Shown here: positions 16,201-52,315 of the stretch, piece by piece | How positions within the stretch are numbered: position 1 is the stretch's first letter | How the letters are laid out: every line of letters begins with the position of its first letter | From: a virus | Length of the DNA: 57,309 nucleotides | Direction: 5' to 3' (one strand) | IMG/VR virus record: IMGVR_UViG_3300002835_000229 | Location: 1-57,309 of that record | Notes under the pieces: model-generated | What the model saw: only the letters and a program-made list of their open reading frames with translations | What the model was told of the DNA's origin: nothing | Databases searched by the model: none | Translations under genes and position numbers: made by a program

Positions 16201-19200
16201 TTAGCAACATTAAGAGATAAATATAGAATTTATAATTCAGATGGTTCTGTAACAAATGCTAGTTATATTTTACCATCACTTAAAAAATTTGGAGCGATAC
16301 ACGAAATGCCTTACGCTTGGGTTTTAAAATACGGGTCAATTTGGTATAGATATAAAAAATGGAAAGAAGATAATATTGATATTTTAGATGATGTCTGGAA
16401 AGACACTGATTATATTGGAAATTACGATCCACTTTTTTCTGCATCCACAACCCAATACCAAGTTCAAATTGATGGACAACCATATGATATTGTTTTAGAT
16501 GGAACAAATACCGTTGGAACAAATGATAAAACAACAATAACTACCGGGTTTTACCCAACACTATTAGACGATTTTAATTTTTTCTTACAAGGACAAAATT
16601 TATTTAACCAATCAACAAATCTTGCTGGAACTTGTTATATAGACGGAACTTTTATGGAAGTTTTATCTATAAACTCAAACACATTAACACCAGGGGCTAT
16701 AATTTCAGGTAGTAACATAAATAACTACACAACAATCATAACCCAGATTAGTGGTACTACTGGGGGACAAGGAGCTTATTATGTAACACCATCACAATCA
16801 TATCCTTTTGTTGACCCAATAACATCAACACAACCATTTATAGTTACAAACCAGTATGTGTTGGGTTATAGTTCTCAATCAATACAGAATACATTAAATT
16901 CTAATTTTAGGATGGTTTTAAGTCCGACCGCATTAATCAATAAATCACAAGGATTTGATAATGGTAATAACAATAGATCATTAACAATATACCCTTGGAG
17001 TTGTTATGCGGTAAGTCCGGACCCAAATTATATTTATACATTACCTTCATTAGGTTCAAATGTTAATCAAGTTAATCAGGAGTGTTTTAACAATGCTGGT
17101 AATTTAAAAATTGAGGTAAGTAATAATCCGGCAATACATAATGGTTCTACAAGGTTATTTTGGCAATCACCAAATTACGGGTACTTCGATAATTCAAAAG
17201 TACAAAAACCACAACCTGATGAATATATAAGAGACGTATTCAATAACACCGAAGAACAAGAAAATTTTGGAATATTTGGTGACCCAGATAAGTATACAAA
17301 AATTACAGAATTATTTACAACATTTAGTCCTGAAATTCTAAATAAATTTGAAGAACAATTTTTATTATTTAGTCAATCGGTTTATGATTTCGAAAGTAAT
17401 TTAAATCCAAGAAATCCTAACGTAAATGAAGAAGAGTCCTATGAAAATTTCCAAGGACTTATGAGAGCAATGTTTAAAACGGATAACCCAAAAAATTTAA
17501 CTGGGTCGGCATTAATTAACACAATAAAAGAAAGTCAAAAAAATAATATACAAAAAATATTAGAATCTTTTATGGGGTATAATGTTGTATTTAAATATGG
17601 AAATCCATCAAACTTTGATAAAAAAATGTTTTACACATTTTCAAATGATTTTATTGAAGACCCATATACGTGGGGAGGATACGTCCAAAATTCACCAAAT
17701 GCATTACCTTATGCTGGTGGAGGAATCACTTTAGCTCAATCAAAAACACAATACCCTATAACTTGGAATACTTTAGAAACCTATGTTGGGTTTTCTGAAA
17801 TACCAAAATTAGAATATACAGATAATGGTTCTTACATTACTGATTTCTTTATTGATATGGATATGGAGTTTAGTGAAAATAATATAAAGTTATATCATCC
17901 GATGATTAAACTTTATGCGACTCAAAAACTTGCGGACCCAACTTTAAATTTGAGTAAATTTTATACCCTTATGACACAATATATTTCTAAGGGAGAACAA
18001 TATATTAATTTAATTTTAGATAACACATTAGTTGGGGCAAGGGCAAAACTACCAAATGTTAAAATAACCGCAAACTCAACAGGAGTTAAATTTAAAGAAT
18101 ATGACGGTGATTTAGTTAGGTTGGATACTTGGGAGTCATTTAAAGCAATTAACGATAAATGGATTGCCGGAGCAGACCTTAGAAGTAAAACGTTATTTGA
18201 AGATGTCCTTTTAGTTGATAGAGCTAGTAGAGATGTTGGACAAAAAATATTCGTTGATATTTTTAAGTTAAAAACGCAGATTGAATCTATGAACTATGCA
18301 AACAATATGTTGGGAATTATAAATACAATTTTGATTGAAAATAGATTCCTAAGTTTTATTCTTCCATCATATGCTAATTTCTATAACGTACAAGACGTTT
18401 CTAAAACACCAAATCCAAGACCTGAAGGCACTTTAGAGTTTGCAAATTCTTTGTTTGGAACTCATTTAAATGTAGATTATAGAGATACTACCGCAAAATA
18501 TTTATGTGTTTACTCTTATGTTCCGAGTGATAAATTGGCGATGAATAATAATGTTGATTATAAATTTAGAGATGATGCTTTTGATCTTAGAAGAGCTACG
18601 GATAACCCATTATTAGAAAGTCAAAACGGAAAAACAAATTGGGATAAATCAAATAAGGTTGTTGGATTTAATGTTGATTTTGGTCCCCAGAACCAACAGA
18701 TTTTTAAACAAATGGATATTGGTCAAAATCCCGGATTACCAACTACAGAATCTTTACAGATGTTAAATCAAATGGCAAACCAATATAGAAATAGAGGTGG
18801 CGCAAGTCAGAGTGTTTCATTATACAATGTATATAGAAATAGAAGTTATGAATGTGAAATTGATATGATGGGATGTGCCTTGATACAACCATTAATGTAT
18901 TTTAATTTAAGAAATATCCCAATGTTTAGTGGTCCATATATGATTACAAGCGTATCACATAGAATTAGTGAAAATGGGTTTGATACATCATTTAAAGGAC
19001 AAAGACAACCTTTCTATAGTATTCCGGCAATAGATAATTTATTACAATCTTTAAGTGCGACTATTTTAACAACACTTAAGGAAAGAGTTAAAGAAGAGGA
19101 TAAGAAAAATACTATTACAGAAACAAATAATAATATTAAAACCGCAACTGAAGCAACAAATAAAACTGCCGACCCTAAAGTAGTCCCAACAACAAATCAA

Positions 19201-20190
19201 GATTGTAGTACGTTATTAAATACGTCTTATAATACTTATACCGCAACAACACCTGTTAATACATCAATAACAATCCCAGAAGCTTACAGTAAAATTGTTA
19301 GTGCCGTTAATGCGATTACAACATTATCTAATGATGATAAGTTAAAATTTATTGATTTTATTTTTATGACTATTTGGACATATTCTATTAGTGGTAATAA
19401 TTTTACAGGTCAAAATAATAATTATGGTTATGTGACCTTAGATAATAATTTTGGTGGTTCCGCAACCTATTTTAATAATTCATATTTTTGTGGAAGTTCA
19501 TCAAATCTAACACAAAAACCATTTGCAAGTTTCACATCTTTTGATTCATTCTTAGAATTTTTTATTGGTAAATATAAAAGTAATGTGTCTAATTTACCTG
19601 TTCGTAATGTTGGGGATAATACCCAAATACAAACGTATATTACAGGAATGTCTAAATCTATTATGGATACTTGGCCAACAAATGGTAGTGTATGGTCAAC
19701 AATGACAGAACAACCACAAAAACAAAAAATCCAAAATACAACGGATGCGTTTACCTATATACAAAATAATCAACCTAAACCAACACCTATACCAGAACCA
19801 AATCCTCCAATATTCTTGGTTGAACCAAAATATACTAATTTCAGTCCACCTCTTTTGGAATCATATACTATTAAATTAAATCCAACGGACGGTAAACGTA
19901 AAATAAGATTTGTTGAAATGTTATTATTAGGTGGGTCAAAAGCTCCGTGTGTTAATAGCGGTGGTCAAGCCGAAGTATCCGAATATATTATAAATGGAGA
20001 CACATTTACAATGGATATACAAGAGATACTTGATGAGTTTGGGTGTACATCAGGACAACCAATGCAAAATTATAAAGGAACTTATTACGCTAAGTTCAGT
20101 CTTACCTCATTCCCTATATTATCAAATGGAGAACCTGACAATAGTAGAAAAGAATATTATAAAACATTTTCATTAACTTTCTCTTTTTAA
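13255..20190 (+). CDS. Giant baseplate hub protein (2311 aa)
   Basis: The largest gene here. Residues ~140-230 (LLGINQINIEYGTDFLP, then ITMEDVKGRALFE and LPYPLFYLTVKGYLG) read as a conserved baseplate domain. Residues ~1870-1910 (ALIQPLMYFNLRNIPMF, GPYMITSVSHRIS) fit the last domain of hub proteins of the gp27/gpD type, in which a strand pair ends in Y-x-I-x-x-V-x-H. Between lie coiled coil (~330-350, 500-525) and long structural stretches. The C-terminal ~400 residues contain a segment around AYSKIVSAVNAI and KPFASFTSFDSFLEFF that might be a cell-wall hydrolase domain; this is weak. The start ATG (13255) lies inside the previous gene. Hub identity is likely, details are inferred. Confidence 0.72.
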   Translation: MVDNNENILVEFDYQNISVIDPNKVIDNEGKVKDRLIKQEDLVFYANLECSVLPRTKLAVGVPQSEAIRTVSVGKINFLNPGFKQFLDNSYTDELTGKGALKGVGVNQPNVRITQNPDLSDDYYLSQTIMSNGNPGSVDTGLLGINQINIEYGTDFLPVISITMEDVKGRALFEAGDNSPYAAFFQLPYPLFYLTVKGYLGKAIRLPLMLHTFNASFDPSTHNFRINTQFYTYKYTIMADVSWGAMYAVPSMYRVNIQSQKTTTSSTSNTPTKTEETYSSLGLQKMKELYTEYKAKGLIDDDFPEITVLQLKENLNKLITNIEEQFKKKNLNILNEVDKYNENLGEYSSVVYLYAGQDSWSRKYLDYNNIFVKNDTDKTELYKFKPEYSSAQEQITAIGKLTGLIQKYNNLLINNTAIGKDISVPIDTKMFFTTAGIGDINVRETYQKRAGFQLTGTSTSTEYLDYKKKLNDEILNSVNLQEYQGLIFLTGYKSFEDAIKKIDEKYKTKKQEVEEKLTKEISDQFASKTNGLGFQPTIRNVLAVFFAQGEAFLRMLDDVHTKAWDLRDDPLRRSAIFSTSSTVQSVDVKNGDLNSPVYPWPQIIGENLIEGKEKYTLKYPGDDDIANKLRAYVPEIWPEVQFVEEFLRGYTEKESPKFSVGDTNNGLSKPRRFSFNATEFTIGNDVYQNTEEVKFFYEIYERMYLSSFYSKLNRDSVKQYNVQTYVSESETTNLVTALGDDNPFLIQKIKEYNINSAIYGAFLKHISNSGEGQSWQNFIRGEFNTPYIKNDVDTSFYFYKNSILLDNTALPNVGLTNEDTVVNYFGGNIVNDEYDLTDLYPLTNLDWCKDYLANGKGIQSKVDTFKTSDTLQYDKSIKSIKNKNVLPITNFNYKKSVFDQSLNLQNLTTFYKNRKIKDQYATEGNLYYDNYNGGVYSDQTTSMFNTPYFANAIQKGVNEFKYSLIEKSPYNIAAYLFLNSLPLATLRDKYRIYNSDGSVTNASYILPSLKKFGAIHEMPYAWVLKYGSIWYRYKKWKEDNIDILDDVWKDTDYIGNYDPLFSASTTQYQVQIDGQPYDIVLDGTNTVGTNDKTTITTGFYPTLLDDFNFFLQGQNLFNQSTNLAGTCYIDGTFMEVLSINSNTLTPGAIISGSNINNYTTIITQISGTTGGQGAYYVTPSQSYPFVDPITSTQPFIVTNQYVLGYSSQSIQNTLNSNFRMVLSPTALINKSQGFDNGNNNRSLTIYPWSCYAVSPDPNYIYTLPSLGSNVNQVNQECFNNAGNLKIEVSNNPAIHNGSTRLFWQSPNYGYFDNSKVQKPQPDEYIRDVFNNTEEQENFGIFGDPDKYTKITELFTTFSPEILNKFEEQFLLFSQSVYDFESNLNPRNPNVNEEESYENFQGLMRAMFKTDNPKNLTGSALINTIKESQKNNIQKILESFMGYNVVFKYGNPSNFDKKMFYTFSNDFIEDPYTWGGYVQNSPNALPYAGGGITLAQSKTQYPITWNTLETYVGFSEIPKLEYTDNGSYITDFFIDMDMEFSENNIKLYHPMIKLYATQKLADPTLNLSKFYTLMTQYISKGEQYINLILDNTLVGARAKLPNVKITANSTGVKFKEYDGDLVRLDTWESFKAINDKWIAGADLRSKTLFEDVLLVDRASRDVGQKIFVDIFKLKTQIESMNYANNMLGIINTILIENRFLSFILPSYANFYNVQDVSKTPNPRPEGTLEFANSLFGTHLNVDYRDTTAKYLCVYSYVPSDKLAMNNNVDYKFRDDAFDLRRATDNPLLESQNGKTNWDKSNKVVGFNVDFGPQNQQIFKQMDIGQNPGLPTTESLQMLNQMANQYRNRGGASQSVSLYNVYRNRSYECEIDMMGCALIQPLMYFNLRNIPMFSGPYMITSVSHRISENGFDTSFKGQRQPFYSIPAIDNLLQSLSATILTTLKERVKEEDKKNTITETNNNIKTATEATNKTADPKVVPTTNQDCSTLLNTSYNTYTATTPVNTSITIPEAYSKIVSAVNAITTLSNDDKLKFIDFIFMTIWTYSISGNNFTGQNNNYGYVTLDNNFGGSATYFNNSYFCGSSSNLTQKPFASFTSFDSFLEFFIGKYKSNVSNLPVRNVGDNTQIQTYITGMSKSIMDTWPTNGSVWSTMTEQPQKQKIQNTTDAFTYIQNNQPKPTPIPEPNPPIFLVEPKYTNFSPPLLESYTIKLNPTDGKRKIRFVEMLLLGGSKAPCVNSGGQAEVSEYIINGDTFTMDIQEILDEFGCTSGQPMQNYKGTYYAKFSLTSFPILSNGEPDNSRKEYYKTFSLTFSF

Positions 20191-26128: not shown

Positions 26129-27988
26129 ATGGATATTTCACAAAAAATATTGAGCAATATTACGGTGTATATGAAATACGCTAAATTTGTTCCTGAATTA
26201 AATAGAAGGGAATCTTGGGAAGAATTGGTGACAAGAAACAAAGAAATGCACCAAAAAAAATACCCACAAATTAAAGAAGAAATTGAAAACGTATACAAAA
26301 TGGTATACGACAAGAAAATTCTTCCATCAATGAGATCTTTACAATTTGGAGGTAAACCGATTGAGATTTCACCAAACAGAGTTTATAACTGTGCTTACCT
26401 ACCTATTGACCATACGGATGCGTTTTCGGAGACAATGTTCTTACTTTTAGGTGGTACAGGAGTAGGATTCTCAGTACAAAGACACCACGTTGATAAACTA
26501 CCAGAAATTAAAAAACCAAATCCAACAAGAACAAGAAGATATTTAATTGGAGATTCAATTGAAGGGTGGGCAGATGCGATTAAAGTACTTATTGAGTCAT
26601 ATATGGGAACAAAATCATCAACCCCTGTGTTTGATTTTTCCGATATCCGACATAAAGGAGCTTTATTAGTTACTTCTGGAGGTAAAGCGCCTGGACCACA
26701 ACCATTAAAAGATTGTATACACAATATTACAAAAGTATTGAATAACAAAAAAGATGGTGAAAAATTAACACCAATCGAAACTCACGATATTATATGTCAT
26801 ATTGCAGATGCGGTATTGGCAGGAGGAATCAGAAGAGCGGCACTTATCTCATTATTTAGTGCTGATGATGAAGAAATGATTTCTTGTAAATCTGGAAACT
26901 GGTGGGAATCAAACCCACAAAGAGGTAGAGCAAATAACTCGGCAGTACTTCTTCGACACAAAATTACAAAAGAATTCTTTATGGGTCTTTGGAAACGTAT
27001 TGAGTTATCAGGAGCGGGTGAACCAGGAATATATTTATCAAACGATAAAGATTGGGGAACTAATCCTTGTTGTGAGATTGCACTTCGACCTAATCAGTTC
27101 TGTAACTTATGTGAGGTAAATGCGTCTGACATTGAATCACAAGAAGATTTTGAAAAAAGAGTTAAAGGGGCTGCGTTCATTGGAACATTACAAGCGGGTT
27201 ATACTGACTTCCATTACCTAAGAGACGTTTGGAAAAGAACAACTGAGAAAGACGCACTTATTGGTGTTGGAATGACAGGAATCGGTTCAGGTGTTGTATT
27301 GGGATATGATATGAAAGCGGCGTCTCAAGCAGTTAAAGAAGAAAATGAAAGGGTTGCGGGTCTTATTGGAATTAACAAATCCGCAAGGTCAACAACAGTT
27401 AAACCATCAGGTACCTCATCATTGGTATTGGGAACATCATCTGGAATCCATGCTTGGCATAATGATTATTATATAAGAAGAATCCGTGTAGGTAAAAATG
27501 AATCAATCTATAATTACTTGGCAATTAATCACCCTGAGTTGGTTGAAGATGAGTTTTTCCGTCCTCACGATACCGCAGTTATTGGTATACCACAAAAAGC
27601 TCCGGAAGGTGCTATCATAAGACACGAATCAGTATTCCAAATGTTGGAAAGAGTTAAAAAAGTTGCACAAGAATGGATTAAACCAGGACACAGAACTGGA
27701 CAAAATACCCATAACGTATCGGCAACGGTTTCAATTAAAGAAGACGAGTGGGAATTAGTTGGTGAATGGATGTGGAATAACCGCAAATTTTATAATGGAT
27801 TATCGGTTTTACCTTATAACGGAGGAACTTATACCCAAGCACCTTTTGAAGATTGTACAAAAGAAGATTTTGATAGATTATTAAACACATTGAAAGATGT
27901 GGATCTTACAAAAGTTATTGAGTTACAAGATAATACCGACCTTAGAGGAGAAGCCGCTTGTGCAGGTGGAGCTTGTGAAATTGTTTAA
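26129..27988 (+). CDS. nrdJ: Adenosylcobalamin-dependent (class II) ribonucleotide reductase, RTPR type
   Basis: Makes deoxyribonucleotides from ribonucleotides with a B12-generated thiyl radical and without a second subunit. Key residues map onto the Lactobacillus leichmannii enzyme by spacing: C88 (NCAY; C119), C314 (thiyl, C408), E316 (E410), C325 (C419, exactly 11 residues after C314) and the C-terminal pair C611/C616 in CAGGAC (C731/C736). At 619 residues it is shorter than the ~740-residue bacterial enzyme. The loop reads NPCCEI, with a second Cys where the classical enzyme has Gly. It stands with replication genes and supplies dNTPs; activity needs cobalamin from the host or its surroundings. 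Confidence 0.9.
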   Translation: MDISQKILSNITVYMKYAKFVPELNRRESWEELVTRNKEMHQKKYPQIKEEIENVYKMVYDKKILPSMRSLQFGGKPIEISPNRVYNCAYLPIDHTDAFSETMFLLLGGTGVGFSVQRHHVDKLPEIKKPNPTRTRRYLIGDSIEGWADAIKVLIESYMGTKSSTPVFDFSDIRHKGALLVTSGGKAPGPQPLKDCIHNITKVLNNKKDGEKLTPIETHDIICHIADAVLAGGIRRAALISLFSADDEEMISCKSGNWWESNPQRGRANNSAVLLRHKITKEFFMGLWKRIELSGAGEPGIYLSNDKDWGTNPCCEIALRPNQFCNLCEVNASDIESQEDFEKRVKGAAFIGTLQAGYTDFHYLRDVWKRTTEKDALIGVGMTGIGSGVVLGYDMKAASQAVKEENERVAGLIGINKSARSTTVKPSGTSSLVLGTSSGIHAWHNDYYIRRIRVGKNESIYNYLAINHPELVEDEFFRPHDTAVIGIPQKAPEGAIIRHESVFQMLERVKKVAQEWIKPGHRTGQNTHNVSATVSIKEDEWELVGEWMWNNRKFYNGLSVLPYNGGTYTQAPFEDCTKEDFDRLLNTLKDVDLTKVIELQDNTDLRGEAACAGGACEIV

Positions 27989-40308: not shown

Positions 40309-41217
40309 GTGGCTACAGGAAATTATGGAACAATAAGACCATCAGATGTAAGTCCTGACGATGTTGAGATAATATTGAATTATACACCGTCTAGAGATAA
40401 CACTGATAATTTTTTACTAACAAAGTTAGACGCTAAAACTATATTGAAGCCGTATTTTCATAATGCAGATACTGGTGGAAACGCAAATGTTGAATTACTT
40501 GGTGGTTTATATAATTTAAAATTACCAGCAGACCAATTTAATAAACTTGGTATTTATACATTATACATAAGACCGGCAGAAATAAGAACTACAATCACTG
40601 ATTGTGGTGTTTTATCGGCATTACCAAATGTTAAAGGAATTGTTATTGATATTAATAATGTTCCGGTTGATTACAGAAATAAATTTATTAATCAAGGATT
40701 AATAGGTTTCAGAGTTGAATATTTAAATGCGAATGGAACTAAAATACCTAATTTCTTTAGGATTATTACCTCATCATTTTATTGTGAACCTGTTTATCAA
40801 AACTTAACAAATACTTCACAAAAATCTATTAGATATAGATATGTTGAGAGTAGTACTAATTTATTATTTTGTACTTTATCACCATCAGCATCGCCAACTA
40901 ACAAACCAAGTGCAACACCGTACATTGGACAACCAAACCAAAATATAATAATAAGTAATACCTTCTTTAACCCAATCACTACTGAGATAGAGATTGTTGA
41001 CCAAGACATCTCAACACTTGCAATTGCTCTTTATGGTAATCAAACTAAATCAATTGATGATGGTATTTACACAATTTACGACAATCAAAATAACATTTAT
41101 AAACAATACAATCTATACGAAATTAAGGACCAGTTTAATGAATTATTATATGAGGTTAGACAGGATAGAGGAACTAATATAGATTTTAGTAAAAGTTTTA
41201 ATAACATAACAGGATAA
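40309..41217 (+). CDS. Structural protein, unknown (302 aa, GTG start)
   Basis: Starts at GTG 40309 with MATGNYGTIRPSDVSP; no ATG gives a better N-terminus. The N-terminal ~190 residues form an Ig-like beta pattern (GGLYNLKLPADQFNKLGIYT, IYIRPAEIR). A Ser/Pro-rich spacer follows (PSASPTNKPSATPYIG, ~207-222). The C-terminal ~85 residues end in a helix and a YEVRQDRGTNIDFSKS tail. It overlaps the next gene (TAATG). It is probably a spacer or connector protein at the base of the fibres. Confidence 0.7.
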   Translation: MATGNYGTIRPSDVSPDDVEIILNYTPSRDNTDNFLLTKLDAKTILKPYFHNADTGGNANVELLGGLYNLKLPADQFNKLGIYTLYIRPAEIRTTITDCGVLSALPNVKGIVIDINNVPVDYRNKFINQGLIGFRVEYLNANGTKIPNFFRIITSSFYCEPVYQNLTNTSQKSIRYRYVESSTNLLFCTLSPSASPTNKPSATPYIGQPNQNIIISNTFFNPITTEIEIVDQDISTLAIALYGNQTKSIDDGIYTIYDNQNNIYKQYNLYEIKDQFNELLYEVRQDRGTNIDFSKSFNNITG

Positions 41218-44216
41218 TGGCAATTAATAAATTTACTTGTCCACCACAGGCCTCAGGCCAAGGATCGTTCTCAGACAACTTAGTTGGATTCCAATTAATT
41301 GATGGGGGAGGATTTACGCAAGGAAATTTTGAATTTACTACTGGTATTTCGGAAAAACAAGATAGAAATTTTGAGATAGGTGTCTTTTCTGACCCTATGA
41401 GTTTAACAAGTATGAATATTGAGGATGTTGAACAATCAAAAATGTTAATTGCGAATAATTTCCAAGTTTATCCAAATTATGATTTAACCCAAATAACAAA
41501 TTTTACATTATATGGTTCGTTAGTACTTAGAGTTTCTTCGTCTATTAGAAAGATTATTAATTTTTTTCCTGCTGGGTTAGAAGTTCTAAATTATAGACCT
41601 GATTATACAACTGGATATACTGCAGTTAATATTGTTTATGACAGTGTAGAAAATGAAACTTATTTTGATTTAGATATATCCGCAATAAGAAACCCGTTTG
41701 GTATTGATTATACAACAAATGCGGACAAAAACATTCTTTCATCTGAAATATCAATATCCCAGTTAAGAAATTTAAAACAAAATTTTAACAAATATGGTTT
41801 ATTTGTGAATGGTGGGGTCTATTCAATAAATGAGATAGTTCCCACAACCGAAAACGATCAGTATCTAAGAATTTATGTTATTGGAGAACCATTCCCAAAT
41901 AAATACCAAACTGAAGAAGATATAATAATAAGACCTACCGATTTTTATGTTAATAAAGTATTTAATGAAGATTTAGATGCGGTTGAAAACTTCTTACTTA
42001 ATAGACAGAATTACCCATTATATACCGCATACTTTCAAGTACCGGTTGAAAATGAAGATGGGACATATACGTTTAGTTACCAAACATTAAGATTTCCTAC
42101 CGATGGAAAATGGAATTTGGACCTTAGAACCAAATCTTTTGAGAATTACTTATCGGAATTAAATAAATTTGCAACAAATTTTGATTCATATAAAACAAAT
42201 TTAATCTCTAGATTTTTAACTACCGCATCCCTAAAAGAATTTGACACAACAGATAAAAAACTTGAAAAAGTTTTACAATTATATGGTAGAAGTTTTGACG
42301 AAACTAAAAAATTTATAGACGCTCTTGCAAATATGAATTCAGTTAGGTATAATGTTAAAAATGACATACCATCACAATTACTTAGAAATTTAGCACAAAC
42401 TTTAGGATGGAAAATAAATATGTCCCCTATTAGTGAAACTGAATTATTAGATTCCGTATTTAAGGGGGCTGAAAGTAATTTTAGTGGAGTCCCTATTGGA
42501 CAAACTCCGGAAGAATTAAATTACCAATATTTTAGAAATCTTTTATTAAATTCTGCCTTCTTATTCAAATCAAAAGGAACTAGAAAATCTATTGAAATAC
42601 TAATGAGATTGATAGGAGCTCCGGAATTTTTAGTTGAGTTTAATGAACATATATATGTTGCCGACCAAAGGATTAATATTAATGACTTTGAAACAAAATA
42701 CCTTTCAATATCTGGAGGAACCTACGTTCAACAAATACCGGTATTAGATTACACCGATGTGTATTCTATTATGGGAGTACAATATACTGGAGTTACATTA
42801 TCAAGTATAACTAGGGATGTTAGTGTTACTCTTTCTGATTACCCCATAGACCAATTTGGTTGCCCCAGCATGCCAGTTGAAAGTGACACATATTACTTCC
42901 AAATCGGAGGAGGGTGGTTTGAATCAACACCACAACATAGAATGCCGGAAAAGATAGATTTGACAACAAGTGTGTTTACCGGAACAAATCCTTCATATCA
43001 AACAAAATTATTACCATTTAATTATGGTGAAGAATATCTACAAAGATACAGACAATTCCCCTATATGGATATGGGATTCAGATTGAGAAAAATTGTGGAT
43101 AATAAAAAAAGTTGGACAGACCACGAAAGTATTTTAAGAAAAAGTTCTGATGGTAATTTTAATGCGTATTATCCAGTTTCGGAAGACTGTTTAGTTCTTA
43201 ATGTTAAGAATGTTGATATCATGTTAAATCCAAGTTTAGGGTTGGTCTATGATGTATGGTCTATGTCTAGATTATATAATTACCCAATACCTAATCAAGG
43301 ATTAAATTATGTTGAACCAACATATTGTAACCCAAACCCAAACACACCATACCCTAAAAGGGGTGGTATTGATTGGACTGAAATTATACCTAAACCAAAA
43401 GAAAAAACATTCTTTGAATTTGCCCAAACTTTTTGGCATAATACAATTAATGTTAGAAATAGACAATTCATAACTGACGGTAAAACCGGTGGTTATCCTA
43501 CATTACAATCAATCTATTGGAAATATTTGGAATCAAAACAAACTGTTAACATCCCAAATGATAATTTCACATATCAAACAATGATTGATTATGTGAATGG
43601 TCTTGGAGATTATTGGATTAGATTGGTAGAACAAATGGTTCCAGCAACAACAATATGGAATACCGGAGTTAGATTTGAGAATTCAATTTTCCATAGACAA
43701 AAGTTTGTTTGGAGAAGACAATACGGATGTCAAATTGTTCCAATACCTTGTAAACCTTGTCTTTTAACTTCACAATTATTTGCTTTTGATTGTCCCACCC
43801 AGTTTATTGAATGTGGGTTATATCCTTGGACAAATAATCCAAATATTGTTTCTTTTGGTACTATATTGGCAGAAACTTTAAATAATTATTTATTGGCGAA
43901 TGGTTTAACTTTAAGTGATTGTTTATTAAATACAATTGTTGTTCATTGGTATGTTGATTTAAGATTAAACGGAGTTCCATTAACTATAGACCTATTTACA
44001 ACAACAAGTGGGTATTCTGTAATACCAACAAATTCTGAATGGGTGAGCGGATTAACCCAATCTTTAAATAATTTACAAAATGACGGACTAACTTATTCTA
44101 TTGATGAGGAAAATAATTCCGTAACTGTTTTTAACATAAATTGTACACCACTTAGCCTTGACGATACGTTTGAGATTAATGTTGGTTTGGACTTTAATAT
44201 ACTGTGTAATCAATAA
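41217..44216 (+). CDS. Large tail connector/fibre-base protein (999 aa)
   Basis: The middle (residues ~330-500) is helical and carries NLLLNSAFLFKSKGTRKSIE-type sequence followed by RLIGAPEFLVEFNEHIY. This K-x-KGT-(R/E)-x-(A/S)-I pattern is seen in tail proteins that link baseplate and fibres (gpI-like proteins of many contractile and siphophages). After residue ~860 it has CKPC and a final Cys-bounded domain that resembles the end of the next protein. The ATG overlaps the previous stop and its own stop overlaps the next ATG. It is probably the platform on which the SprB-repeat adhesin is mounted. Confidence 0.72.
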   Translation: MAINKFTCPPQASGQGSFSDNLVGFQLIDGGGFTQGNFEFTTGISEKQDRNFEIGVFSDPMSLTSMNIEDVEQSKMLIANNFQVYPNYDLTQITNFTLYGSLVLRVSSSIRKIINFFPAGLEVLNYRPDYTTGYTAVNIVYDSVENETYFDLDISAIRNPFGIDYTTNADKNILSSEISISQLRNLKQNFNKYGLFVNGGVYSINEIVPTTENDQYLRIYVIGEPFPNKYQTEEDIIIRPTDFYVNKVFNEDLDAVENFLLNRQNYPLYTAYFQVPVENEDGTYTFSYQTLRFPTDGKWNLDLRTKSFENYLSELNKFATNFDSYKTNLISRFLTTASLKEFDTTDKKLEKVLQLYGRSFDETKKFIDALANMNSVRYNVKNDIPSQLLRNLAQTLGWKINMSPISETELLDSVFKGAESNFSGVPIGQTPEELNYQYFRNLLLNSAFLFKSKGTRKSIEILMRLIGAPEFLVEFNEHIYVADQRININDFETKYLSISGGTYVQQIPVLDYTDVYSIMGVQYTGVTLSSITRDVSVTLSDYPIDQFGCPSMPVESDTYYFQIGGGWFESTPQHRMPEKIDLTTSVFTGTNPSYQTKLLPFNYGEEYLQRYRQFPYMDMGFRLRKIVDNKKSWTDHESILRKSSDGNFNAYYPVSEDCLVLNVKNVDIMLNPSLGLVYDVWSMSRLYNYPIPNQGLNYVEPTYCNPNPNTPYPKRGGIDWTEIIPKPKEKTFFEFAQTFWHNTINVRNRQFITDGKTGGYPTLQSIYWKYLESKQTVNIPNDNFTYQTMIDYVNGLGDYWIRLVEQMVPATTIWNTGVRFENSIFHRQKFVWRRQYGCQIVPIPCKPCLLTSQLFAFDCPTQFIECGLYPWTNNPNIVSFGTILAETLNNYLLANGLTLSDCLLNTIVVHWYVDLRLNGVPLTIDLFTTTSGYSVIPTNSEWVSGLTQSLNNLQNDGLTYSIDEENNSVTVFNINCTPLSLDDTFEINVGLDFNILCNQ

Positions 44217-46525
44217 TGAGTTATATTAATTTTATATCGTTTACTGTTACTGGAGATTGTGGTAATCTGAGTGTTGGTGAAATGTCTTTCACTATAACCG
44301 GAGACTCACCTACTTGGATTGTAACCGAAGGACCACCATATACTGGTTTATTACCTTTGTCTGGTTTAACACCTGGAGATGAAACCTATTATGTTGGTGG
44401 ATTAAGTGCCGGAACATACTCAGTTATCGTACAAGACACCGCACCAACCGGCCCAACACCACCATTTAGTGTAACAACAACATTTAATATTTCTTCAGGT
44501 ACTACCGTTTATTTGGATGCGGAAGGAACTACTTGTGGTTTAAATAATGGTTCATTAACTGGTTATACCGGAAATTTTTATGGTAATTCATCATTTTATT
44601 TATATACACTTTTAGGTGATTATGTAACAAGCGCTCAAACACCTTATAATATTGGATATGTTATTTTTCCTAATTTATCTGCCGACACTTATTATGTTAT
44701 TGGTGATGATGGTGGTGGTTGTACTGGGAGAAGTGAATCGGTAATAATTAATGTAAGTAGTTCTTTTGATTATGGTTATTATGCCGTGGACGATGCGAGT
44801 TGTATAAACAACCAAGGTAGTGGTAAAATATACTTAACAGGACTTACAACACCAACAAGTGCCTACACAATTAATTGGATATCAAATGTTAATGGTCAAA
44901 CAGGAACAACCGTAACCGGATTAACACAAGGGTTATATACGGTCGAAGTTACCGACACAATCGGATGTATAGTTCAAAAAAACATTCAAATAGTTAATGT
45001 ACCTAAAATAGGTATAGGAGCAACATATATTACATCACCAGGATGTTTCCAAAATAACGGAGAAGTAACGGTTGTTGTTACTGGAGGAACCGCACCATTC
45101 TACTACTACGCCTCAAATGGGGATGACTTTATTGGTTTTGGTACATCACATACATTTACAGGATTAACCAATGGGATATTAACAATAACGGTAACTGACG
45201 CTGGTCTATGTAATGACACAATACAAGTTAATCTTGTTACACCAAATTCTTTTGGTGTTGTAAATGTCGTTACAACAAATTCAAATTGTAATTCAAATAA
45301 CGGATCGATATATATAACAATTAATAATGGAGTTGGGACTGGTAACTACAATTATACTATTTCTGGGTCTAACGGAACAAATCAAGTAAATGTTGCCGGA
45401 GGACTATCACAAACATTTCAAGTAGGTACTGGGGACTATGTGATTTTAATTGATAATGGGGCGGATTGCCAATATACTGGAACAACAAGTGTTTATAATG
45501 TTGATAAATACACAATAACGGGTTTAACTCTTAATACGTCTTGTGGTTTAAATAATGGAACCATAAAAACATCGGTATCAACGGGGGCAGTTTATCCTTT
45601 GTCATATCAGTTAGTGGGTCCAATAGGTAATTCAATAACCACAACACAATTAAATGGTAATTTTAGTGGATTACAAGCGGGTACTTATAATTTAACTGTT
45701 ACAGACGCAACTGGATGTCAACAAACAATACCAATATACATTGCACCATCAAGCCCTATGTATTTTGATTTTATGACCTTTAATCCGGTGTTTGGTAACG
45801 ATGGTCAAATAAATGTTTTAATAACAAGTGGTACACCACCATTCTCATATACTTGGACTGGTAATGTGGGGGTACAAACAGGGATTGTAATTACAGGATT
45901 AACATCGGGAGTGTATAGTTTAACAATAGTTGATGATAATGGTTGTTCATTTACAAGAATTGTGAAATTAAAAGGTACTGAACTTTTTGGAACATACTCA
46001 GTGTTCAATATATGTGAACAAAATTTTGAAGATTCTAACATTGTAGGTAAAAGAGGTATTTTACAAATGTTTAATGAAGGGTTTTACGATTTAACTTCCG
46101 GAGATACAAATTGTATTGTTAATTCTGCGGAATTTAACTTACAAGTTATTGTTGGTGGTGATGAATTAATTGAAACAATATATTATTCTACAGGACTTGA
46201 TGATTACCCAAGTGAAGTTGTGTGGGCTGATTCATTAATAGAAATGTTACAAACATTTGTTGGTATTGGAGATGTAACAATAGATTATGTTAACAACAAA
46301 ATAACAATAACTAATGATTGTGAAGAGATTATTAAAAATTGTAGAACAAAAACTTACAATTTATTAAATGATACTAAAATAACGGTTAATTTAATTATCA
46401 ATTACGATATATCTTGCGTGGCGTGTGAACCAACACCAACTCCGGACATTCCAATTAATGCAATTATTACTAATAATAATGAATATATGGAAACTGGTGA
46501 TGATGAATATTTACAATATAATTAA
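44216..46525 (+). CDS. SprB-repeat tail adhesin (769 aa)
   Basis: Residues ~98-586 are about seven tandem Ig-like units of ~70 residues, each starting near C-x-x-NNGS and ending in GLxxGxYxxTVTDxxGC. This is the SprB repeat (PF13573 type), known from the Flavobacterium gliding adhesin SprB and other Bacteroidota surface proteins. Good units are INNQGSGKIYLTGLTTPTSA and the one containing TGGTAPFYYY and GLTNGILTITVTDAG. The C-terminal ~150 residues (after FGTYSVFNICEQNFED) are a different Cys-containing domain shared with the previous gene's end, followed by a PTPTPD tail. It is likely a fibre that contacts the host surface. Confidence 0.83.
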   Translation: MSYINFISFTVTGDCGNLSVGEMSFTITGDSPTWIVTEGPPYTGLLPLSGLTPGDETYYVGGLSAGTYSVIVQDTAPTGPTPPFSVTTTFNISSGTTVYLDAEGTTCGLNNGSLTGYTGNFYGNSSFYLYTLLGDYVTSAQTPYNIGYVIFPNLSADTYYVIGDDGGGCTGRSESVIINVSSSFDYGYYAVDDASCINNQGSGKIYLTGLTTPTSAYTINWISNVNGQTGTTVTGLTQGLYTVEVTDTIGCIVQKNIQIVNVPKIGIGATYITSPGCFQNNGEVTVVVTGGTAPFYYYASNGDDFIGFGTSHTFTGLTNGILTITVTDAGLCNDTIQVNLVTPNSFGVVNVVTTNSNCNSNNGSIYITINNGVGTGNYNYTISGSNGTNQVNVAGGLSQTFQVGTGDYVILIDNGADCQYTGTTSVYNVDKYTITGLTLNTSCGLNNGTIKTSVSTGAVYPLSYQLVGPIGNSITTTQLNGNFSGLQAGTYNLTVTDATGCQQTIPIYIAPSSPMYFDFMTFNPVFGNDGQINVLITSGTPPFSYTWTGNVGVQTGIVITGLTSGVYSLTIVDDNGCSFTRIVKLKGTELFGTYSVFNICEQNFEDSNIVGKRGILQMFNEGFYDLTSGDTNCIVNSAEFNLQVIVGGDELIETIYYSTGLDDYPSEVVWADSLIEMLQTFVGIGDVTIDYVNNKITITNDCEEIIKNCRTKTYNLLNDTKITVNLIINYDISCVACEPTPTPDIPINAIITNNNEYMETGDDEYLQYN
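44507..45973 (+). repeat. Tandem SprB-type repeat array (about seven units)
   Basis: Protein-level repeats of roughly 70 codons, strongly diverged at DNA level. Unit ends near residues 180, 260, 340, 428, 508 and 586 are marked by the (V/I)TDxxGC or equivalent motif. Confidence 0.75.
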
Positions 46526-46527
46526 AT

Positions 46528-46743
46528 ATGCAACAACTAACTTTAAATAGTATCATAGGGTTAGTACCCCCATTTAGTGGATACGCTTGTGACGTTTACG
46601 GGAACCAATGTGAATATATTGGAACAATAACCTCAACACCAGTAACTATAACATTACCCCCACCTTTTGACATGGCCCCAACAATAGGGTTTAAATTAAT
46701 TGATTCTACTGGGTGTGAAAAATTTGAAATCTTAGATTGTTAG
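46528..46743 (+). CDS. Small fibre-cassette protein A (71 aa)
   Basis: Starts two bases after the adhesin stop. It is beta-rich, with four conserved features: a GLVPPF turn, YACD..G..CEYIG, a TLPPPF strand, and a C-terminal FKLIDSTGCEKFEILDC. The 73-residue gene at 54400 (-) has the same pattern (PFDVYVCD, C-Y-x-x-TI, LRVIDNNECQINEIL) and is clearly a paralog. Both stand directly upstream of a modular fibre cassette. The function is unknown; a fibre cap, chaperone or attachment module would fit. Confidence 0.7.
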   Translation: MQQLTLNSIIGLVPPFSGYACDVYGNQCEYIGTITSTPVTITLPPPFDMAPTIGFKLIDSTGCEKFEILDC

Positions 46744-46843: not shown

Positions 46844-47824
46844 ATGAAAGATATTGTATTTGTAACTGCACAACCTGACGTTCCATATTTTCATTGGCAG
46901 GTTAAATTATATGTTCATAATTTTATTGAGAAGGGAATTGACCCTAAAAAAATTCACGTAATTTTTGCTATGGTTCACGGATCAAAAGAACTAACAGAAG
47001 GAGCAAAAAAATTAATGGACTATGGTATTAATGTTCATTTTTTTGATGATAATAGAAGTAAAAATTTATATATACCTAGCATAAAACCTTATTTGATATT
47101 TAAGTGGTTAGAAAAAAATCCTGAATTAGGTAAATGTTTCTTTTTACACGATGCCGATATAATCTTTAATAAATTACCAAACTTTGATAGTTTATTAAGT
47201 GATGATATTAATTATTTATCAGACACAATAAGTTATATTGGATATGATTACATTATGGATTGTGGTAATAGATATGAAAAACAACATCCTTCATCTGAAA
47301 AAGGACAATTAATAAGTGAAATGGCAAACATAATTGGGATTGATGTTAACACAATAAAAGAAAATCAAGAAAATTCTGGGGGAGGACAATACCTTATAAA
47401 AAACACCGATTATAAACTGTGGGAAAAAATATACATTGATTCAACACCATTATATAATCAAATGTTAAGTTACCAAAAAAGATTCCCAATTAATCCAGGA
47501 CAAATACAGTTTTGGACTGCTGAAATGTGGTCCGTTTTATGGAATTTATGGTTACATAATCATAAAACAAAAATAACAAAAGAATTGGATTTTTCCTGGG
47601 CGACGGATAATGTTAATAGGTATAATTCTATGCCAATACTACATATGGCCGGAGTAACAGATGACCTAAAAGGAACTAAATTTTATAAAGGAGAATACAT
47701 TAATGTCGACCCAATAGAAAAATTAAGAGAAGATGAGAATTACTTTAATTATGTTGATAAAAATAGCTCAACAATAAAATATATTGAAGTAATGAAATCT
47801 TTTATTCAAAAAACTAAAATCTGA
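46844..47824 (+). CDS. Glycosyltransferase-like protein (GT-A, DxD)
   Basis: The 326-residue protein starts with a Rossmann-like strand (KDIVFVTAQPDVPYFHWQV), similar to the beginning of peptidyl-serine galactosyltransferases and hydroxyproline arabinosyltransferases. The metal-binding DxD is HDADIIF (D103, D105), preceded by IKPYLIFKWLEKNPE. It has no signal peptide or transmembrane segment, so it is a cytoplasmic enzyme. It sits inside the fibre block between genes rich in Thr/Pro linkers. I infer that it adds sugars to fibre proteins (perhaps to those linkers) or to another phage or host target; donor and acceptor are unknown. Confidence 0.75.
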   Translation: MKDIVFVTAQPDVPYFHWQVKLYVHNFIEKGIDPKKIHVIFAMVHGSKELTEGAKKLMDYGINVHFFDDNRSKNLYIPSIKPYLIFKWLEKNPELGKCFFLHDADIIFNKLPNFDSLLSDDINYLSDTISYIGYDYIMDCGNRYEKQHPSSEKGQLISEMANIIGIDVNTIKENQENSGGGQYLIKNTDYKLWEKIYIDSTPLYNQMLSYQKRFPINPGQIQFWTAEMWSVLWNLWLHNHKTKITKELDFSWATDNVNRYNSMPILHMAGVTDDLKGTKFYKGEYINVDPIEKLREDENYFNYVDKNSSTIKYIEVMKSFIQKTKI

Positions 47825-47837: not shown

Positions 47838-49616
47838 ATGGAAACTTGTTTTAAATTGCTTTCTTGTGATGGGTCTTATAATCCATTTAACTCTAATAAT
47901 CCTAATTTATCTGGGTATGTTGATACATTTATTACCATTGATTTATTAGGTCCTTTAACAGGAACCCCAGAAACCCAATTTTTAGTTAAAAATTTAGGTG
48001 AAATTGATTGTGTTACAGGACAAACTTTTAATATTATTAGTAGTGCCGAAACTTGTGATTGTCAGTGTTATATTTTTAAAACGCCCGAAGAACCAATATT
48101 AACCACATATGTTGATTGTGACTATAATTTGTTAGAGGTTTATTTACCTACAGGAAAAACAACAAACTTATGTAGTGTCATTAAACCAATTTTTGATATT
48201 GGAGATCCTTTACCAATAAAGTTAGGGGGAATATGTGTTAGTGGGGATTGTCCAAATTACGACATGCCTGTTACTATTGAACCCAGAAATGAATGTGACG
48301 TACTTACAATATTTCCTATGGGTGTTGATTGTATTATCCAAAATCCAACTAACGATAGAACATTTGACGGAGCGGCAGCATTATCAATTACCGGAGGAAC
48401 ACCACCTTATACGGTAATTTGGGATAGTGGAGGTATTGCACCAACAATATATAATTTAAATGCTGGTTCATACGGAGCAACCGTAACCGATTTTTATGGT
48501 GATTTTATTATTAACACAATTTGTGTTTTAACTGCCGAAACAACAACAACCACAACAAGTACAACAATAAAACCACCTATCGAATATAGTGATTTATGTG
48601 GAATTGCAACAATTAGAAGCAAAATAATCGGAGTACCCATTGACTATGTACAAATACAATTAGAACCTAATGGGGCAATTAACGGTAAAGAAAGTTGGAT
48701 ATCCCCAGACACCCAATATTTATTATCTTGGATTACCGGAGCAACAAACCAATGGGTTTTAACTGGATATCCATCACCATACATTAATATCGTAAACGCA
48801 AATCCGGCAACACCACCATTAACTGGATGGCAAGTATTAGGAGGAATAGAAGTTTATAATTTTACACTTATTAGTGGAGACTGTACAAGTGATAGTTTGG
48901 TAGGATTTAACTTAACCAAAAATGACCCTATTTGTGGTAATAGTGGAAGCATCCTTATCCAGGCTTATGGTGGAACTGGAATTTATGAATATTCAATTGA
49001 TAATGGGATTAATTATACCTCAAACCCTATGTTCCAGAATTTAGGTTCAGGATCATATGTTGTTTACGTGAAAGATTCTAATGGAGTTACATTTCTTCAA
49101 AATGTGTCATTAATACAACAACCAACAACAATTTATACAGTTGAATTAAACGTAAATACGGCAACAAATACATTTAGTATTAATTGTCCTTTATTATTAC
49201 CAGGAGACACATTAACGTTTAATTTAAATAATAATAGTAATTTACAATATTACCCTAACACTCTTTCACCAGTACCTTTATATAATAATGTTGTTACTAT
49301 AAATGGTTTTGGGCCAATGACTTTAGTAACAACAAACAATTCACAAAATGTTTTAAGTTTACCTTGTTCTATAACACCAATAACTCAATTACAACAAGTA
49401 AAAGCATATAGTAATCAAATAACATTAAGTTATGGTCAAACAATTACAGGTTCTTTTACCAATAGTTTAGTAAACTACTCACCTTTTGGTTATTGTGTGT
49501 TAGCACAAAAAAATTATCAATTATTTATGACAAATGCAAAAATTAATAATTGTAAGTGTTGTAGTGTTATTATAAAAAACCCACCGTTATCTACCCCTAT
49601 AATCGTAAAAAATTAA
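47838..49616 (+). CDS. Modular fibre protein with SprB-like units and Thr linker (592 aa)
   Basis: Layout: a Cys-rich N-terminal part (1-155), a SprB-like unit (~162-232, SITGGTPPYTVIWDSGG), a Thr-rich linker (~234-246), a module starting INGKESW with a later NQWVLTG (~252-355), a second SprB-like unit (~365-430, IYEYSIDNGINYTSNPMF), and a C-terminal beta domain with CKCC near the end. The NGK...W module is shared with the inverted fibre gene at 53025. It has neither enzyme motif nor membrane segment. It is probably a distal fibre or adhesin that recognises the host. Confidence 0.75.
   Translation: METCFKLLSCDGSYNPFNSNNPNLSGYVDTFITIDLLGPLTGTPETQFLVKNLGEIDCVTGQTFNIISSAETCDCQCYIFKTPEEPILTTYVDCDYNLLEVYLPTGKTTNLCSVIKPIFDIGDPLPIKLGGICVSGDCPNYDMPVTIEPRNECDVLTIFPMGVDCIIQNPTNDRTFDGAAALSITGGTPPYTVIWDSGGIAPTIYNLNAGSYGATVTDFYGDFIINTICVLTAETTTTTTSTTIKPPIEYSDLCGIATIRSKIIGVPIDYVQIQLEPNGAINGKESWISPDTQYLLSWITGATNQWVLTGYPSPYINIVNANPATPPLTGWQVLGGIEVYNFTLISGDCTSDSLVGFNLTKNDPICGNSGSILIQAYGGTGIYEYSIDNGINYTSNPMFQNLGSGSYVVYVKDSNGVTFLQNVSLIQQPTTIYTVELNVNTATNTFSINCPLLLPGDTLTFNLNNNSNLQYYPNTLSPVPLYNNVVTINGFGPMTLVTTNNSQNVLSLPCSITPITQLQQVKAYSNQITLSYGQTITGSFTNSLVNYSPFGYCVLAQKNYQLFMTNAKINNCKCCSVIIKNPPLSTPIIVKN
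48537..48570 (+). repeat. ACA-rich triplet tract (Thr linker)
   Basis: ACA/ACC codons encode TTTTTTSTTI between the first SprB-like unit and the NGK module. Confidence 0.7.
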
Positions 49617-49639: not shown

Positions 49640-52315
49640 ATGGCATATATAATAAAAAATACATCAGGATTAGTTAACACAAGAGTTACCGACGTTGGTA
49701 GACAGAAAATGTCCCAGGGTAACTTTAATATTTCTTATTTTCAAGTGGGGGATAGTGAGATATCATACGATAAACTACCAGCAACTTATAATCAGGCAAA
49801 TAGTTTTATTTTAGAACCTGGGTTTAATAGTCAAAATACTAGCGGAGCTCCCCAATCAAACAAACAATATGTTAAATACCCATATTATGCCGATTCAAAC
49901 CAAAGAAATACATATGGAATACCCTTTATGGACTCAACAATTGATCCGGTATTTAATCGAGCTCCTTTAAGAGGATTTTTTGGGGGAATAACAACCGCAA
50001 CAACAATAAATTGGGAAGTTTTAGTTGGGGATAATTATGTCCTTAGTTCTAATTATATGGTGGATATGTCAATGCTTAATGGGTCAAATCAAATTGAGTT
50101 AATATATTCTGGTTGTAATAGAACAAGTGAGACAACTCCACAAATTGGGGATATTATCACAATTTATTATGATGGGAATGCATTATTAAATTGTGAGTGT
50201 ATAAACTTACCAACACCAACCCCAACACCTTCAGTAAGTGTGTCCCCAACGGTAACTATGACCCCAACACCAACACCTTCACCAACAGATATTTGTGCGT
50301 CATCAACACCAACACCAACACCAACAAGAACTCCTTGTTTAACCCCAACACCAAGTCCTGAGTGTCCATTACCACCACCACCGGAGTGTTTTATGGGAAT
50401 GAATAGTTGTTATACTATTTTAACATATAGAATTATTGATGTTTGCGGTGATTTAATAACTTTAGATAGACCAACACCAGATTATACAAACTTACTTGTT
50501 ATGTGTTATTCAAGAGTATTAATATACCCTCAAAATATGACACAAATATATGATAGTATAACACCAGGACCACATTGGAGTGAACAAGTTATAAATTTTG
50601 AATCTATATGTGATACTGACCAGTTTGATGTTAAAGTTTGGAATATGAATATTCCTTGGACAGAAAATCCGGCAGGTTTAATCCCATCATTATTTGAGGA
50701 CTACACTAAATTTGGTTCTATTAATTATATAGGATCAAAAGAATATTTTGGATATAACTCAAGTTCTGGTCAAACAGATACTGATTATGTTTATTATTAT
50801 AATTCATTTGACGAAATTGTTCAGGTTAAACCGGAAGAACAAAAGGCAATTGCGATTATACATTATACTAATCAAACAATAGATTTTTTCTATGGTGAGA
50901 AATTTGCGTTAGAACCATATGATGTGACAAACCCAGAAGACACAACAGGTCAAGCAAGAAACTTTAAATTACATATTCCTTGGTTAATGTGGCATAAAAA
51001 TCCTGAATGTTGTTTTGGACAAACATTTTGGGTAGATCCTCCAGGGTTTGAAGACAAAGAATTATTTACGGTTCATTACCTCAAATCAACTAAGAATGAA
51101 GATATGAACCAACCTGGTATGAGATATTACCATTTATGGGACACAAACCCTAATTCAGATGGAATCCCAAGTAGAATAGGTAAAGTTTTCCCTGACAGTA
51201 AGTTGGTTATTATTGATGATGAAGAAATAATTGCCGCAATGTCTTATAAATCAAATAGAAACTGGACGTTACCGGCACCTCAAGTATCATTAATAACACC
51301 AAATACTTGTGATACCACAACATCGGCAACTGGAATCCTAACAGGAAATTCAGAGACAATGTTTATAACATATAGATTAACTAATGACAATGAATTTACA
51401 AATTCATTGCATTGTAATTACTATTCAAAAGTTATTGGTAATAATAATGATTGTAATCCGGATACTTCTAAAAATATTGCAATTAGATTTGGTCCTGAGT
51501 TTGGATGTTTAGTCCAACCAGTTCATAATCATATAACAACTACAACCACAACAATACCAGTTTGTCAAAGATATGAAATCATTAATAATGGTGATAAAGG
51601 TGTGATCGTAACGTTTACGCCTTGTTGTGATGAAACAAAAACATCACCACTATCATTACCCGGATCGACAGGAACACAACTTTGCTCAAGCACCGATATT
51701 GACCCAATTTCATCCGCGGTGACAATAACCAATTTAGGTGATTGTCCTTCGTGTATTACAACTACAACAACAACATTTTGTCCTACATGTGAGGTACCTT
51801 TAGGTTTTTATGGTAATAGATTTGAAATATTAGCACAAAAAGTTGTAACAGGAACTAGACCAGATTCCACAAAATGGAAAGTCATTGATTTTACTCCACT
51901 TATTAGCGGAACCTCAATTAATGGATACTTAACTCAAAATGGTATTACTGGTAGTACTTTTATAATATCAAATGAGAATTATAATGTCGCACCTTACTAT
52001 AATTTAAATACATTCATCCCATTAACACCTAACGGTAATGTTGGAGCAAAATTAAACTTTGGTGATGAATATTATTTTTATGGAGCTTTTGAAACAGATA
52101 TACAGGCAACAATATATGAAATGAAATATAAAATTAATTTAAGTTCTAGTGAATTCCAGGTATCAACAAACCCATCTTGGACTCAAGGGACTACATCATA
52201 TGTTACTGAAATTGCGTTATTGGATGAAAATAAAGATATATTAGTTATGTCAAAACTACAATCACCAACAATAAGACAAGGTACCCAACAATACGTGATT
52301 AAAATAGATTTATAA
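49640..52315 (+). CDS. Tail fibre-type protein with Pro/Thr linkers (891 aa)
   Basis: The first 40 residues (TRVTDVGRQKMSQGNF, then YFQVGDSEI) resemble the start of tail-collar fibre proteins (LTxxGxxKxxxG...hxVGD), a domain that attaches a fibre to the baseplate. Residues ~190-240 are a TPTP linker. The middle (~260-630) is a large domain of unknown family with conserved-looking HYTNQTIDFFYGEKF. Two Thr runs (~632, ~705) flank a Cys-bounded module (CQRYEIINNGDKG ... CSSTD), which is repeated at the end of the - strand fibre gene. The C-terminal ~170 residues are a beta domain. It is likely the fibre shaft with exchangeable modules. Confidence 0.75.
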   Translation: MAYIIKNTSGLVNTRVTDVGRQKMSQGNFNISYFQVGDSEISYDKLPATYNQANSFILEPGFNSQNTSGAPQSNKQYVKYPYYADSNQRNTYGIPFMDSTIDPVFNRAPLRGFFGGITTATTINWEVLVGDNYVLSSNYMVDMSMLNGSNQIELIYSGCNRTSETTPQIGDIITIYYDGNALLNCECINLPTPTPTPSVSVSPTVTMTPTPTPSPTDICASSTPTPTPTRTPCLTPTPSPECPLPPPPECFMGMNSCYTILTYRIIDVCGDLITLDRPTPDYTNLLVMCYSRVLIYPQNMTQIYDSITPGPHWSEQVINFESICDTDQFDVKVWNMNIPWTENPAGLIPSLFEDYTKFGSINYIGSKEYFGYNSSSGQTDTDYVYYYNSFDEIVQVKPEEQKAIAIIHYTNQTIDFFYGEKFALEPYDVTNPEDTTGQARNFKLHIPWLMWHKNPECCFGQTFWVDPPGFEDKELFTVHYLKSTKNEDMNQPGMRYYHLWDTNPNSDGIPSRIGKVFPDSKLVIIDDEEIIAAMSYKSNRNWTLPAPQVSLITPNTCDTTTSATGILTGNSETMFITYRLTNDNEFTNSLHCNYYSKVIGNNNDCNPDTSKNIAIRFGPEFGCLVQPVHNHITTTTTTIPVCQRYEIINNGDKGVIVTFTPCCDETKTSPLSLPGSTGTQLCSSTDIDPISSAVTITNLGDCPSCITTTTTTFCPTCEVPLGFYGNRFEILAQKVVTGTRPDSTKWKVIDFTPLISGTSINGYLTQNGITGSTFIISNENYNVAPYYNLNTFIPLTPNGNVGAKLNFGDEYYFYGAFETDIQATIYEMKYKINLSSSEFQVSTNPSWTQGTTSYVTEIALLDENKDILVMSKLQSPTIRQGTQQYVIKIDL
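50209..50360 (+). repeat. CCAACA repeat coding TPTP linker
   Basis: Imperfect CCAACA/CCAACC hexamers encode TPTPTP tracts broken by SVSVSPTVTM, DICASS and RTPCL. The same linker type is on the - strand at 53911-54069. Confidence 0.8.

Follow-up and report, generated by a model that had tools for sequence, protein, structure and literature searches.

SprB-repeat proteins of the Bacteroidota are adhesins. SprB itself has been described as an adhesin in this phylum (PMC12635249), and phages of gut Bacteroidota, including myoviruses, carry modular Ig-like adhesins (BACON, PKD) near their structural genes, which have been assayed for epithelial binding (PMC13370021). Phage proteins named 'SprB repeat' and Ig-like adhesins of Bacteroidota phages are already known; what is apparently new in the locus described here is a conserved SprB stalk with tips supplied in cis or in trans, of which we found no description among open papers.

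The window analyzed is a whole virus record of 57,309 bases. It encodes a tail sheath, a tube, a baseplate hub and wedge proteins of the gp25 and gp6 types, along with a gp32-like single-strand binding protein, a DnaB-like helicase, a ribonucleotide reductase, a primase and an exonuclease, and its GC content is 0.30-0.34. The window is a fragment of a T4-like myovirus, one represented by metagenome records only, and its host is probably a member of the Bacteroidota. The SprB-repeat gene, here called X, lies inside the baseplate cassette, and its start codon overlaps the stop codon of the upstream gene, g41217. A sequence-only reading had already placed the SprB gene in the tail, and gene order, which puts it within a myovirus baseplate cassette, agrees. 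X is labeled a putative tail adhesin because of gene order and the fibre ORFs of relatives; the baseplate-type role of g41217 is likewise assigned because of gene order, the protein having no Pfam or PDB sequence match. The genes of this region are as follows.

41217..44216, + strand: g41217, a conserved 999-aa protein of putative baseplate type, with 307 viral relatives and a C-terminal domain homologous to that of X.
44216..46525, + strand: X, a 769-aa SprB-unit protein and the proposed arm, over the PF13573 cut-off, as are 50 of 50 homologues.
46528..46743, + strand: an adaptor ORF of 71 aa that lacks the tag; where relatives encode their fibre separately, the adaptor has 98-100 aa and is tagged.
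46844..47824, + strand: a 326-aa phrog_4417 protein between X and Y, a PHROG of unknown function.
47838..49616, + strand: Y, a second structural-type protein, with two SprB-type units (Pfam PF13573 and unit profile).

Several features of the neighboring genes were recorded alongside. The product of 46844..47824 contains the motif LHDADIIF, which by eye is glycosyltransferase-like, and a phrog_4417 gene between X and Y also occurs in many relatives with Thr/Pro-rich linkers in their X tails or other tail proteins; that this protein might glycosylate the fibres is a putative idea and a speculative one. Downstream of Y, positions 49640-52315 encode an 891-aa protein (phrog_15511) with Thr/Pro-rich linkers (TPTPTPSVSVSPTVTMTPTPTPSP), the C-terminal part of which is weakly similar to immuto gp106 and to a tail-cassette protein of Mel-JY01. 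The ribonucleotide reductase (26129-27988) is 67.6% identical to the enzyme of Microcystis phage Mel-JY01 and 61-62% identical to Vibrio and Oceanospirillum phage proteins that are annotated as recombinase. Tail proteins, by comparison, are only 25-33% identical, which suggests horizontal transfer.

Both X (E 2.7e-8, 33.7 bits) and Y (E 7.7e-8, 32.3 bits) match Pfam PF13573 over its cut-off of 28 bits, and none of the generic Ig and FN3 Pfam families is over cut-off in either protein. At the DNA level, PF13573 matches fall at 45029-45124, 45794-45868 and 48915-49007, with a weaker one at 48363-48431. A chance match to SprB can be excluded because all 50 distinct X homologues match this family, the best with an E value of 1.5e-25. 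With borders in X set by repeat anatomy, the units and the C-terminal regions are these.

44228..44500, + strand: X unit 1, from the unit profile; a weak SprB member, outside the interval first read as SprB repeats.
44501..44770, + strand: X unit 2, a weak SprB member, with Cys107 and Cys169 at the positions of a putative disulfide.
44771..45007, + strand: X unit 3, from the unit profile.
45008..45253, + strand: X unit 4, the best Pfam SprB stretch.
45254..45508, + strand: X unit 5, from the unit profile.
45509..45751, + strand: X unit 6, from the unit profile.
45752..45979, + strand: X unit 7, which the unit tree places as the sister of unit 3.
45980..46441, + strand: C-terminal alpha/beta domain of X, a proposed docking domain (unit comparison, AlphaFold2, HMM homology).
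46442..46525, + strand: the variable C-terminal end of X, a tail of about 30 aa plus the stop; in relatives a Pro/Thr linker and tip, a terminal tag, or nothing.
about 48339..48527, + strand: Y unit 1, from the unit profile.
about 48900..49118, + strand: Y unit 2, over the Pfam SprB cut-off.

The sequence-only reading had counted about seven SprB units at 44507-45973 and two more in the product of the gene at 47838. The count of seven stands for X, but six of the units lie inside that interval and unit 1 lies just upstream of it; the two units of Y were both recovered. Profile-profile comparison demonstrated the kinship of all seven X units (for example, units 3 and 7 at 99.5%, E 1e-22), with units 1 and 2 the weakest and least SprB-like and some of the pairs at 42-54%. 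The same comparison found residues 589-742, in the C-terminal part, unrelated to the units. The AlphaFold2 model of X (mean pLDDT 79.8) shows seven units, each a beta-sandwich, with an alpha/beta domain after the last. Homology connects this C-terminal domain with the final 100 residues of g41217 (HMM E 1.3e-5; hhalign 93.8%), and helices and strands follow in identical order in the two models, that of g41217 being poor outside two regions. We infer that it is a docking or assembly domain.

Relatives of g41217 were found in at least 307 stretches of viral contigs. Eighty of these loci were fetched, and 77 were testable, meaning that the contig did not end before the position of X; an X homologue directly follows g41217 in all 77. 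The X core of about 710-740 aa aligns end to end across the homologues. No relative of g41217 was found in GTDB contigs or in 395 Bacteroidota genomes, a search that had no positive control, and no isolate relatives were found by way of g41217 or Y. Por_Secre_tail matches in 13 X homologues were discarded as cross-matches lying inside Ig units (residues 377-404 in L058, for instance).

Beyond this core the homologues vary, with tips of 0-690 aa, and the 25 tips of at least 60 aa fall into 9 similarity groups. In some X homologues a long Pro/Thr linker leads to a tip, which contains DUF285 in L021 and Fib_succ_major in L069. A strong PDB profile match to 8zvk was set aside as probably low complexity, since it falls at the start of the Pro/Thr linkers (profile positions 725-796). 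Other homologues lack a tip, and the gene after them encodes an adaptor of 98-100 aa that ends in an aromatic C-terminal tag (consensus FQDGDDFFFMDYEIYQFQ), with a separate ORF after the tagged adaptor wherever the contig continues. In L019 this separate fibre ORF has YadA_head and Peptidase_S74 domains and tail-fibre PHROG matches; neither domain was found in X by Pfam scan. Of the 57 distinct loci compared, the linker (cis) is present in 29 and the tagged adaptor (trans) in 19; none has both, and nine have neither. The exclusion of cis by trans has a Fisher p of 1e-8, a value not corrected for kinship; the layouts changed 8 times on the tree but are clustered on the phylogeny, and the independent pairs are too few to reach significance. 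The window phage is among the nine loci with neither arrangement, having an untagged adaptor shortened to 71 aa and no fibre ORF next to it. In L006, its closest relative, whose X is 91% identical, the adaptor is tagged and is followed by the beginning of a YadA-like repeat ORF; the homology between the two phages ends at the end of the adaptor. Five other loci (L007, L022, L035, L045 and L081) have a bare or nearly bare X, so that an adjacent tip is not obligatory.

The reading that we favor, and consider probable, is that X forms the proximal arm, or base, of a tail fibre, built from a Bacteroidota-type adhesin module and ending in an exchangeable tip. The seven SprB-type Ig-like units would form an extended rod, and the C-terminal alpha/beta domain common to X and g41217 would tie X into the periphery of the baseplate. 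The distal, presumably receptor-binding, part would be open to exchange: some relatives have it fused to X by the Pro/Thr-rich linker, while in others the small adaptor, by means of its aromatic tag, probably couples a separate fibre. The window phage would lack the distal part at this place. Weighing against this reading are the clustering of the cis and trans layouts on the phylogeny, the five further loci with a bare or nearly bare X, the poor quality of most of the g41217 model, and the presence of Ig units in phage decoration proteins as well. If this is true, widespread uncultured phages (at least 307 contig matches) share an adhesin stalk made of a Bacteroidota-adhesin building unit, which would give a handle for assigning such contigs to the Bacteroidota and would allow a test of adhesin-module exchange between phages and gliding bacteria. 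The C terminus of X and the adaptor-fibre cassette would then be a place to seek host-range determinants, and the adaptor tag is a candidate natural coupling peptide.

A less likely reading makes X a decoration or whisker protein, comparable to Hoc, T5 pb10 or a neck whisker, providing weak general stickiness and not the base of a fibre. In the PDB the phage unit profile does match the T5 decoration protein 5lxk (E 1.9e-7, 34 bits) and a phage neck-whisker protein, 9occ (E 9.2e-7); the sole PHROG match of X is a 'virion structural protein' of the head and packaging class; and Ig-like modules act as adhesins on crAss-like phages and myoviruses that infect Bacteroidota (PMC13370021). However, X lies within the baseplate cassette and has a domain in common with the upstream g41217, and in relatives its C terminus is the site of the tips or is adjoined by the adaptor and fibre genes, all of which suits a fibre base better than a decoration.

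It is also conceivable, though we regard it as unlikely, that the SprB units themselves bind the host, through either surface glycans or like-like contact with SprB-type adhesins of the host, the two uses that the sequence-only reading had offered. SprB-repeat proteins are adhesins in the Bacteroidota, the units are the conserved part of X, and the five further relatives with a bare or nearly bare X would be accommodated. Yet the unit positions are conserved and vertically inherited and the variation is at the C-terminal tip, a pattern more in keeping with a stalk than with a surface that binds a receptor. More improbable again is that the SprB arm grips SprB-type filaments or moving outer-membrane anchors of the host, the virion then riding the gliding track to the place where it injects.

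Origin of the units was addressed with a tree of 40 host units and 98 phage units, the latter taken from 14 phages. Each of the seven unit positions forms one clade over the 14 phages (SH-aLRT 78-99), whose neighboring proteins are 54-74% identical to those of the window, and the window units score far higher against the same position in other phages than against any host unit. Since the seven clades follow position in divergent phages, the array is older than the phages sampled and is a long-standing fixture of the lineage that predates the divergence of its known members. Host units fall between the phage unit clades, requiring five changes, with the backbone of the tree weakly resolved. For units 1, 4, 6 and 7 the best match outside their own position is a host unit and not another phage unit. 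By this evidence the units did not simply arise by copying one another inside the phage, with the possible exception of units 3 and 7, and they share descent with a domain family of Bacteroidota surface adhesins. The capture of host adhesin modules suggested earlier would at best be ancient, each unit position being one clade over 14 divergent phages and the array being present in 77 of 77 testable relatives. A recent capture of a segment of a host gliding-adhesin gene is very improbable: the host matches of units 1, 4, 6 and 7 outside their own positions would favor it, but all seven positions are monophyletic across phages as divergent as these and same-position phage matches score far above host matches.

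The closest cellular relatives of the units were sought by a consensus scan, and 79 of the 80 best loci were in Bacteroidota, the query being a partly host-like consensus and thus biased toward host-like units. The nearest relatives therefore lie within the phylum that the sequence-only reading had named, and neither this search nor the Pfam scan gave a result of the kind that would have refuted that reading. PF13573 was over cut-off in 33 of 148 Bacteroidota genomes versus 1 of 150 from Pseudomonadota, and this single genome is the MAG that gave the sole exception among the 80 loci. That locus (L134) is on a 5.8-kb contig of a Methylococcales MAG and is probably a binning error.

SprB kinship favors a Bacteroidota host. 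It had been put forward as the best host clue in the window, a ranking that should be revised, as genes for type IX secretion system (T9SS) cargo in a relative are a stronger clue, also toward Bacteroidota. The contig of L060 (95,857 bases) has two T9SS type B cargo genes (L175:9890-12115 and 15517-19560), whose products have C-terminal matches to CHU_C (48-50 bits) and TIGR04131 (50-61 bits) and, by eye, a leader-like N terminus; one has about ten PKD domains, and the other a PKD-like domain and a sub-threshold SprB unit. These genes sit among small phage-type genes of equal GC, although the contig could conceivably be chimeric. The nearest isolates give an ambiguous answer as to host: immuto infects Flavobacterium, and Mel-JY01, which has the closest ribonucleotide reductase (67.6%) and a gene order similar to that of the window, is listed under Microcystis.

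T9SS sorting domains were also seen in other phage records. The 642-kb huge-phage record LR756502.1 encodes a 1670-aa protein (L091:18162-23174, about 514378-519390) with about a dozen SprB repeats, a TIGR04131 match of 50-56 bits (cut-off 35) and, by eye, a leader-like N terminus; the neighboring ORFs resemble phage topoisomerase subunits by eye, and the protein appears from its domains to be a phage-encoded, SprB-like T9SS cargo. In a second huge-phage record (LR745206.1, L172; 634 kb) the TIGR04131 cut-off is passed by three open frames, of which one, 732 aa long, also holds an SprB repeat; the record has two TIGR04183 matches over cut-off as well. In the isolated Flavobacterium phage immuto, a T9SS type A sorting domain (46.5 bits against a cut-off of 23) is present on gp015 (NC_055915.1 12691-13422; L179:1192-1923), for which the annotation is cohesin-domain protein.

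The type B sorting domain (TIGR04131) was not matched in X, Y or the window. That X is a moron, a non-virion protein that the type IX system of the host would export to the surface of infected cells, is accordingly a very doubtful explanation. In its favor, cargo of this kind with SprB or PKD units is encoded by one relative and by two huge-phage records. Besides the absence of TIGR04131, however, the only TIGR04183 match in the window falls below threshold and is inside unit 7 instead of at the C terminus, the N terminus of X (MSYINFISFTVTGDCG) shows no signal peptide by eye, and X follows g41217 with overlapping stop and start codons.

Among described proteins, A0A6J5LD72 ('SprB repeat', uncultured Caudovirales phage, BFVD) very probably belongs to the X family: it has 714 aa and 30% identity to X, with a Foldseek E value of 1.1e-55 over 750 aligned columns. 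Its name is automatic and comes from a Pfam match only, and no paper describing it was found among open papers. The adhesins of PMC13370021 share with X the use of Bacteroidota-associated Ig-like modules, but they are of other domain types and SprB is not mentioned there. The T5 pb10/Hoc decoration proteins are alike in the 5lxk match of the unit profile. In Flavobacterium phage immuto, as in the window, genes for primase and exonuclease come after large tail genes and those of the gp25 and gp6 types, and identity to the window is 25.7% for the wedge protein and 33.5% for the sheath; the fibre genes of immuto, however, have Collar and YadA-type domains, and SprB was found nowhere in its record. 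The grappling hook protein GhpA of Aureispira (Bacteroidota), also a tandem-unit surface adhesin, gives the best PDB Foldseek matches of X (E 1.3e-17, 16-19% identity), but is bacterial and thousands of residues long. The fold search was not accepted as proof of SprB kinship, since the VIA-align Z of 9.8 for GhpA is tied with fibronectin and CD45 arrays. The gliding adhesin SprB differs in that X has no T9SS sorting domain and is sited in a phage tail cassette, and the likeness drawn earlier to the gliding adhesin of the host was too specific, as PF13573 occurs in many Bacteroidota surface proteins and X lacks the type B sorting domain. SprB-repeat proteins of the Bacteroidota as a whole share with X an Ig-like unit family over the Pfam cut-off and its tandem array, and host units score 56-79 bits per locus, against 34 bits for 5lxk, with the phage-unit alignment, which was itself partly used to find them. 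A Cys near each end of the unit is present in 915 of 994 host units and in nearly all phage units 2-6, and host reading frames contain up to 27 units, compared with the fixed seven of X.
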